A DNA stretch of 64,000 nt from Thamnaconus septentrionalis (lineage: Eukaryota > Chordata > Actinopteri > Tetraodontiformes > Monacanthidae). Made by a program: the position numbers and the translations under genes. The notes below the pieces were generated by a model. That model was not told the DNA's origin and did no database searches. It saw nothing but the letters and a program-made list of their open reading frames with translations. This document shows positions 23,401 to 26,400 of this stretch, in pieces. The DNA is taken from contig CM020502.1 in assembly GCA_009823395.1 (NCBI GenBank), positions 14,801,501 to 14,865,500 of the forward strand. Reading direction: 5' to 3'. Every line of letters begins with the position of its first letter. Position 1 is the first letter of the stretch.

Positions 23401-26400
23401 ATAATCCTGCAGGTATGTCAACCATTGCAATGAATCAAAATTGGCATCATTAGCAGAGCAGTGACAAGTGTTAAGACTTGAAGATTCTGTGTTTCTGGTC
23501 TTTGGTTGGCTGCAGCTGCCGTGTTCTGCATTGGCTGTGATTGGCTGTGAGACTTTTGCTTCTTTAGTTTTGCCTGTGAGTTGGCGGCAAGTAACCGGGA
23601 GGCTATTGACTAATCCTCATCCACAGACATGCATGCGCACCAATATGCACACTCAGTCGCGTAGCACATCTGCAGCATTGCATAACTTGATAGTGGCTTG
23701 CTGATATGCAATACTAACTTGCAAATACAACTGTACACGTAAAATATCAAATATGTCAAGTCTTTAGTGTTTAGCAGTGTATTAGGGATAATATGTTCTT
23801 TTAATTATAGAAGAAACATTATTTAAAAAAAAAATCAGTATTTTTAATCATTTTCATCAGTTTCCTGTGACATTTCATGGCAACATGTTTGCTTTCAAAA
23901 ACCATTAAAAATGTTGAGGGTGTTTTAATAGCATTCTAACAAAAAGTGTTTTCATGTCCGTCATATTCAGTTGCAGAAAAATCTCTTTACCAATTATCTG
24001 TGTGTTTTGTTTTTTTGTAAGATCACCTTGGTCAGTTTTTGAGGTGAGAAAAGTCAGCAAGAGTCATTTTTCTTTTCAGATATAAGGAAGTAAAAAAAAA
24101 TTGGCTTGGGCTAGTGGTGTTATTTCTTTCTGGGATAAAACGTCACCCCACACATCTTCTGTCTGTTGACATTGAGCCCTTTCTATTCTTTGGTTACAAA
24201 GCCGGACCGGCTGCTCGTGCACGTTAGCGCATGTGAACCTTCTCCCCTGCTCATTGGAAACAGCTGCTCCACCACCTTTAGAAGTAGAAAGAAGCAACCA
24301 CTTCTTCAGAAAACACACGCTAATAGCATTAAAACATGCTCCACGCGAATGCTAACAATTGCTAAAATTATGCTAAATAGAATGAAACAAGAAGTTTGAC
24401 ATGGTAGCAGAATTGTGTGTTGGACGCAGGTCAATCACCCTTGGAAAGAAGAAGTGGTGACATTTCCATCTCCCAGTGCCCAGCCTCTATATTTTAGTTT
24501 ACTGGAGCCCTCTAGTGGTGGAAAAAAAATTGCATATCGCCACTTTAAATTCTCTTGGATCTTAGAATATCTCATGATTATTCTAGATTCATGATTGTGA
24601 TTTTTTTTTCCCCCAAACATTCTTTTATTGACTGGGCATGTTGTTAAAAAGCTTATTTAATTACCTTATGACAGCAGAATACAGTCAGTAACGCATCTTT
24701 GAAACATCCATTAACTAATAGTTTGAATAGTTTTCCATTGTCATAAAAAACTTTGTGTTTACTTTATATATCCATAACATTGTAAAAGTTTGTGCAGGTT
24801 GTGTAAACGTGAGAGCTGTCCAAGTGTCATCATGATAGAGATAGAGAAGCCCTGTATTAGTAGCCACAAGCACACGCAGCACGTAGTTGAATACATCTCA
24901 CTCTTGTGCACTCTTCTGCTGCTGTGTCAGCAAATTCTTGTTTTGTTTTGTTTGTTTGTTTGTTTTTAGAAAAAAAGAAATATTCAATTTCCACATTACC
25001 AATAGAGGAAAAGATGAAAATAAAGAAAACATTTTTGAATGAACAATAATCGACAATAAAATACATTTTGTGCTTCAATAATGGTCATCCAACACCTTGG
25101 GAAAATTCTTCTGTAACTACATGTTCATTAAAGGAGTCATTTATGTTGCTTTAGATATTAATTTCATCTGTTTAAAATATAAAGTAATGTAATCTAAAAT
25201 CTAATTAAATGCTTCTGCAGTTCCCTCATCTGGAAGCCCAGTGAAACGTGGAAAATCTAATTTATGTTGCCCGCAAAATCTGCATAATTGGAAAGAAAGT
25301 TAATTTTGTAGATTAAACAGGAAAATGCGAACGTGTGCTGATTAATATTAATCAATACCTGGGATGGTGTACATTTCGAAACAGGTCATGTGATGTCAAA
25401 GCAAATTAAGCCATTAGTGGGTCTCACCTGAACACTTGTCTCAGTTTAGCGTCAAGTGAAACTGCAAGTCCAAATGCTGAGAGCGTAAAGCTTCTGACTT
25501 GATTGATTTGGTAATCAATACCTCAGATATCATCTGCACTGTGGGCTGAAACCACTGCAGTGCGACATACACATTGCCTCCACATTCAGTTTAGTTTAGT
25601 GCTGCTGCACCTTTTGCTAAAATAATTGCCTACCGATTTTGTTTCACATTTGTTTCAGTGTCAGAGTCGAATGTAGGGACGTCTCATTTAGAACTGCTCC
25701 GTCTCCTTAGAGCACATAGTCTAAATACAAAAGAAAAAAACCCAGACAATTCCTGTTCCCACTGTTGAACAATAGATTGAAACATATCAGGAAATAGTTT
25801 GCAAAAGATTTAGAAAAGCTGTCAATCTACACAGATGAAGGGCTCTGCAAAGTAAGATTTTGTAATTGTAACTGTGTAATGACGTTGTAATAACACATTG
25901 TGATTGAATACACAGGGCGAACAATGCTGAGGTTGGGGCCATATTTGACAGGTAATTACGCCACTACACCAACACTTTTCTTAACCCCTCCTCTAAAGGC
26001 AATATCACTGCGATACCAAAAGAATTCAAACATAAAGCCTAGGTTTTTAAAAAGCTACCCTCATTTTTCACTGGAGTAAATTTCCGTGGTCCAGCTCCTG
26101 TTTGAAAAAAGGGTGGGATGCTCCATAAGTTCAGCCAATTGGAATTGAAATGGAAAAACTCAACAAATGCGGCGAAAAGGAACCATCTCCGTCAATGAAA
26201 CAATATTTACATTTCTTGCGCGCATGACCTTGAAATGCTCTCCATTGAACTGATAAACCCGGTGCAGTCCGGTCTTGTTTGGCAAGACACTTGTCTTGTC
26301 CAGTGTGTTGAATACACTGCAAAGATCAGTGATGGTCCAGACGCATGCCGGCATTATGTAAACAACTTGTCCCTTCATACCAGTGTGTATGGCTGGTGGG

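Follow-up and report, generated by a model that had tools for sequence, protein, structure and literature searches.

The rxrba locus

The window analysed here (i.e., the whole stretch of 64,000 nucleotides from Thamnaconus septentrionalis) carries a gene which, as judged by similarity, is the orthologue of rxrba (RXR-beta-A), a nuclear receptor of the RXR (NR2B) group. Among the matches listed, the best full-length ones to the encoded protein are fish RXR-beta-A, identity to the rows named RXR-beta-A is 94-99%, and the form that skips the helix-7 mini-exon discussed below is 99% identical to RXR beta of Sparus aurata. In Pfam, the inclusion form gives zf-C4 at 110.5 bits and Hormone_recep at 139 bits, both above the cut-off. 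The closest PDB sequence is RXR-beta 1uhl (E 4.3e-93), and all three PDB alignments shown leave a 12-residue gap at the helix-7 insert.

The gene model, all on the + strand, begins with an A/B-domain exon at 12875..13067 (ends approximate, taken from a tblastn match). Tblastn and the spliced model then place an exon with the end of the A/B domain and the start of the DBD (15522..15675), an exon with the remaining DBD up to the T-box (GMKRE; 15803..15982) and a T-box/hinge exon (20638..20798). The LBD exons at 22024..22153, 26922..27013 and 27804..27909 are derived from the sequence and the spliced model, as is the final coding exon (28577..28725), which ends with the stop at 28723-28725; a further LBD exon, at 22867..22999, is placed by tblastn and by an 80-nt alignment. 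Two mini-exons complete the model: (i) a 21-nt exon in the T-box (18762..18782), recognised by its splice sites, frame and homologous inserts; and (ii) a 36-nt exon of phase 2/2 at helix 7 (25916..25951), downstream of exon 22867..22999 and upstream of exon 26922..27013, recognised by its sequence, splicing, splice-site ranks and homologues, which encodes 12 residues and constitutes a second copy of the VGAIFDR segment.

Upstream of rxrba in the window lies a mir-219 precursor at 7321-7400 (+) (Rfam RF00251, 69.7 bits), which we take to be a neighbour of RXRB. Gly-X-Y runs (col11a2) were sought among the neighbouring genes and not found, and Pfam reported no family above the cut-off for 10 of the 68 listed ORFs of the window.

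The helix-7 mini-exon and its homologues

The helix-7 mini-exon is located inside an intron of 3,922 nt (23000-26921), and its boundaries read tacacag, GGCGAACAATGCTGAGGTTGGGGCCATATTTGACAG (25916-25951) and gtaatt. Joining 22999 to 25916 and 25951 to 26922 adds 12 residues between VGAIFDR and VLTEL, that is, directly behind AIFDR, where the first-pass annotation had placed them. The exons on either side end and begin in phase 2, and in both the inclusion and the skip form no stop interrupts the modelled DBD, hinge and LBD exons before the one at 28723-28725; taken alone, the 36 nt have stops in frame 1, the true phase being 2. As in a cassette exon, the frame is preserved and usable splice sites are present on both sides, and the coordinates, length, phase and dinucleotides given in that annotation were correct.

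The two splice sites differ in quality. The pyrimidine fraction upstream of the acceptor is 0.50, the lowest among the nine modelled acceptors of the gene (0.69-0.88 in the other eight). Scored with a splice matrix, the donor ranks third among the 248 GTs of the intron and is the best among 88 candidate stretches of the same intron (AG...GT, 21-60 nt, open and frame-preserving); it is not clearly weak. A putative branch point, taataac (25888..25894, + strand), lies some 22 nt upstream of the acceptor; a strict yUnAy scan gave no site. The poor pyrimidine tract fits, without proving it, an exon that needs help for inclusion, and in this species it would favour regulated inclusion. It could also be that of a relic exon whose splicing was lost in T. 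septentrionalis, but this reading is very improbable in view of the open frame, the intact AG and GT, the donor rank (3rd of 248) and the changes in VGAIFDR, which are synonymous only.

Homologous inserts were sought in a set of 264 different RXR proteins drawn from the best 120 of 1503, 3967 and 4193 matches. Counts over these proteins, among which are the chimeric annotated rows P0001, P0121 and P0125, are not frequencies. At the helix-7 junction, 116 of the 264 matches listed carry a homologous insert (defined by EV.A..R immediately ahead of VLTEL), 118 carry nothing, 27 carry another insert and 3 are unreadable. Two lengths can be distinguished among the matches listed: (i) 12 residues, in 22 rows from spiny-rayed fish (Takifugu, Solea and Cynoglossus among them); and (ii) 14 residues, in 94 rows from cyprinids, characins, bony-tongues, eels, tarpon, salmonids, cods and Amia. 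The EV.A..R core is conserved over the rows from Amia to percomorphs; the rows of Polypterus and sturgeon have no insert or unrelated letters at the site.

The T. septentrionalis insert belongs to this teleost RXR-beta class, as it lies between (V)GAIFDR and VLTEL and ends in EVGAIFDR. It resembles the annotated teleost rxrba isoforms in gene, junction and EVGAIFDR core and differs from them in its peptide, since the exact 12-residue variant occurs in none of the 264 matches listed; the nearest peptide among them is that of P0020, from Ameca splendens. The conservation in related fish, whose absence would have spoken against the first-pass annotation, is borne out by the 12- or 14-residue inserts in 116 of the 264 proteins among the matches listed, and so is the relation to a 14-residue teleost insert. 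On the other hand, a length of 12 residues is neither special nor peculiar to this fish, because 22 of the 116 insert-bearing rows among the matches listed share it. Nor is the exon hidden, as had been supposed: many fish RXR-beta-A gene models already include the homologous insert.

The insert itself is widely annotated in fish RXR-beta gene models; to this the present analysis adds its origin by duplication, the difference between the two paralogues and the second mini-exon. No paper describing the helix-7 mini-exon was found in the open-licence literature; subscription papers mostly fall outside it, so the exon may have been described there.

In seven species, forms with and without the insert are annotated on contigs of equal listed size (Scleropages formosus, Xyrauchen texanus, Myxocyprinus asiaticus, Paramormyrops kingsleyae, Megalops cyprinoides, Engraulis encrasicolus and Conger conger), these pairs being annotations that may be model predictions. 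They suggest that the helix-7 mini-exon is most likely a cassette exon, and the alternative use that had been proposed for it is very probable.

Regarding chance, 200 versions of the intron with shuffled bases were translated in six frames, and no peptide from them matched the end of the preceding exon as well as the real one. The similarity score is 39 for the real intron, against a shuffled maximum of 37 and a mean of 18.5; the margin over the maximum is small. The mini-exon is accepted as real because a homologous insert is present in 116 of the 264 RXR proteins among the matches listed. A chance match was rejected on the shuffles, the homologous inserts and the 80-mer alignment described below.

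Other short sequences are found at the junction between VGAIFDR and VLTEL, such as PFSR (Monodelphis), SSSQ (Takifugu rxra), QLNGV (Xenopus), LVNVR (Sinocyclocheilus) and HSTEIGFLGDR (Gekko RXR-gamma). Some of them may be gene-model errors.

Origin of the insert and its course in two paralogues

Sequence comparison identifies the helix-7 mini-exon as a partial duplicate of an exon; both teleost RXR-beta paralogues and Amia have it. The 14-residue insert aligns without gaps to the 14 residues that close the preceding exon. The two agree at 12 of 14 residues in the rows of Amia and elopomorphs, at 11 of 14 in those of cyprinid type and, in the shorter version of T. septentrionalis, at 9 of 12. 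At the DNA level, the last 80 nt of exon 22867..22999 and the 80 nt ending at 25951 align with a score of 39, which none of the 955 other 80-mers of the intron reaches (maximum 33.5). Between the two copies of VGAIFDR four codons differ, all of them synonymously. The likeness extends beyond the acceptor: the intron letters CACAG plus the first G of the exon match CAC AGG in the coding sequence of the parent exon.

This extension past the acceptor indicates that both splice sites came with the duplicated end of the exon. From the preceding LBD exon, the final 42 nt (14 codons) would have been duplicated along with its donor, and the coding CAC-AGG would have turned, in the copy, into the acceptor CACAG/G. 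Such a derivation accounts for the phase of the mini-exon. Acanthomorph fish, T. septentrionalis included, would then have lost two codons, from 14 to 12 residues. The 6-nt gap in the alignment of copy and parent falls exactly at the two codons missing in T. septentrionalis. A shift of the acceptor was considered as the cause of the shortening, but a 6-nt deletion fits better, as CACAGG still adjoins the junction, an argument in which six bases are little and the acceptor consensus provides three of them.

The presence of the insert in rxrba, rxrbb and Amia alike makes an origin before the teleost genome duplication probable. The sturgeon and bichir rows show no visible insert, so this dating gives at best a minimum age. 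A tree of 33 hand-picked rows, mostly insert-bearing, built with the inserts removed, groups the rxrbb rows (95/91, in a bootstrap that had not settled) apart from the rxrba rows and Amia; this is the only supported group, the rxrba rows being unresolved.

The two paralogues, assigned by motif, differ in what became of the copies. Among the matches listed, rxrba-type rows have GVGAIFDR as the first copy in 54 of 58 cases, and the four exceptions resemble rxrbb rows that the motif placed wrongly. The first copy of rxrbb-type rows reads GVGAIFDR in 25 of 58, GVEAFFDR in 23 and GVAAIFDR in 10, whereas the second is EVGAIFDR or EVGALFDR in all 58, among the matches listed. Teleost rxrbb (e.g., ESAHSAEVGALFDR) carries a homologous insert at the junction where the rxrba of T. 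septentrionalis has its own, but with 14 instead of 12 residues, an often diverged first copy and possibly constitutive inclusion. The patterns fit an insert that is constitutive in rxrbb, where the second copy would have taken over, and optional in rxrba; they are not independent events, since the rows are related. Counting against a constitutive rxrbb insert are 31 rxrbb-type rows without it among the matches listed, of which 26 are UniRef-only. The comparison of the paralogues is a natural test of which VGAIFDR copy works.

Constitutive inclusion might also hold in T. septentrionalis, the skip form being minor or an annotation artefact. The 26 UniRef-only entries among the 31 insert-free rxrbb-type rows of the matches listed may be projected gene models, and a diverged first copy (GVEAFFDR in 23 of 58) beside a uniform second one (EVGAIFDR or EVGALFDR in 58 of 58) is what would be expected if the second were always present. 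Nevertheless, that divergence belongs to rxrbb, the first copy of rxrba-type rows being GVGAIFDR in 54 of 58; 46 of the 83 rows new in the best 120 of 3967 matches are named RXR-beta-A isoforms without the insert; and the pyrimidine tract of the helix-7 acceptor is poorer than those of the other eight modelled acceptors. Constitutive use in T. septentrionalis is, in consequence, quite improbable.

Predicted function and the second mini-exon

With good confidence, we regard the helix-7 mini-exon as a conserved optional exon of fish rxrba, derived from the duplication of an exon end, whose inclusion is predicted most likely to lower or alter the ligand response. Skipping would give the ordinary RXR-beta LBD, while inclusion would give an LBD in which VGAIFDR occurs twice, the second copy adjoining VLTEL, and would place additional residues between helices 6 and 7, next to the pocket. 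The first-pass annotation had described an extension of helix 7, and this stands as one possibility. But the repeated exon end means that inclusion would duplicate the pocket-lining VGAIFDR, not simply lengthen helix 7; and since VGAIFDR is re-encoded, VLTEL would keep its neighbours, and what is added could just as well be an enlarged segment of helices 6-7. The insert may then be a longer helix 7, or its second copy may replace the first in the pocket, or the first may stay there. AlphaFold models from 54 and 103 near-identical rows have mean pLDDT values of 39.6 and 48.8, too low for structural conclusions; the second puts the copies in two helices with a break between them (147-155 and 157-177) at a pLDDT of about 45, below evidential quality.

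A reduced ligand response upon inclusion is the favoured but tentative prediction, somewhat less probable than not, and it is drawn from a mouse isoform and from the title of Jones 1995, which reportedly announces new zebrafish RXR subtypes that do not bind 9-cis-RA. These subtypes are presumably RXR delta and epsilon, which we take to correspond to rxrbb and rxrba and to have a 14-residue insert; their non-binding is that of the title. Furthermore, the region bears further changes in cyprinid rxrbb (GLHVPRDSTHNLGVEAFF), so non-binding there need not come from the insert. The mouse isoform, RXR-beta2E, is described as having an SLSR insert in the LBD and impaired transactivation (PMC9015987). 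SLSR occurs at the helix-7 insert junction in 17 of the 264 matches listed, the named ones being mammalian. It shares with the fish insert the same R/V junction and its optional place in the LBD, but consists of four unrelated residues of independent origin and, unlike the fish exon, probably arises from an alternative acceptor. By analogy with these cases, a switch between a ligand-responsive and an unresponsive receptor by splicing would be plausible.

Alternatively, the optional use of the exon could affect the choice of dimer or partner, the recruitment of coregulators or the geometry on DNA, and not ligand binding, which is possible but on the unlikely side. The segment runs into helix 7, and had been placed near the dimer surface. 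Standing against this are the zebrafish subtypes reportedly without 9-cis-RA binding, and also the content of the segment: counting back from the C-terminus of RXR-alpha (462 residues), its V, I and F are presumably Val342, Ile345 and Phe346. These three are included among the ligand-pocket residues of RXR-alpha (PMC3288053), and on this mapping the duplicated segment would hold all three of these ligand contacts. In favour of it, snail RXR isoforms bearing T-box inserts differ in their activity (PMC3774650), which implies that RXR splice inserts need not work through the ligand. A further alternative is conserved, nearly neutral alternative splicing with equivalent isoforms. The exact VGAIFDR in the second copy could let the domain fold normally around a tolerated loop; nevertheless, the EV.A..R core has been retained from Amia to percomorphs, and neutrality is rather improbable.

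The second mini-exon (18762-18782) lies inside a 4.65-kb intron (15983-20637), and its inclusion changes KREAVQEER in the T-box to KRE-VAKMNVRS-VQEER. It has a strong pyrimidine tract (0.94, matched by 2 of the 219 AGs of the intron) and the 4th best donor of 262, and keeps the frame both alone and combined with the helix-7 exon. None of 200 shuffled introns matches VAKMNDRS as well as it does, and homologues of the insert occur in other fish RXR-beta-A models. Among the 264 matches listed, 12 have a VAKMNDRS-like and 19 a VVQDERQ-like T-box insert. Crossing both sites over the same 264, 9 rows have both inserts, 3 the T-box one only, 38 the helix-7 one only and 106 neither, the remaining rows having other or unread letters; all four combinations are, hence, present among annotated fish proteins.

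The VVQDERQRS insert of other fish RXRs (19 rows, P0025-P0232) matches the opening of the exon that follows, VQEERQRN, at 6 of 8 residues. It is a possible second partial exon duplication in the gene.

Mollusc RXR isoforms vary at the same place of the T-box, with an insert between A and V (PMC3774650). The molluscan and crustacean inserts resemble the second mini-exon of fish in arising by alternative splicing within the same KREAVQEER, but differ from it in peptides and exons, and they are not at the helix-7 site (PMC3774650).

A broader proposal is that fish RXR-beta-A would have two switches, the helix-7 exon tuning the ligand response and the T-box exon editing the seating on DNA and with the partner, for a total of four receptors. 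After the teleost duplication, rxrbb would have fixed the helix-7 insert, its second copy taking over and its first decaying, and rxrba would have kept both states, so that the isoforms would have been divided between the paralogues. This proposal is speculative and unlikely to hold in full.

RXR is a common partner of many nuclear receptors. If the reading of the helix-7 mini-exon as an optional exon that lowers or alters the ligand response is true, fish could alter their sensitivity to retinoids and organotins tissue by tissue without any change in gene expression, and assays carried out on one RXR-beta isoform would mislead.
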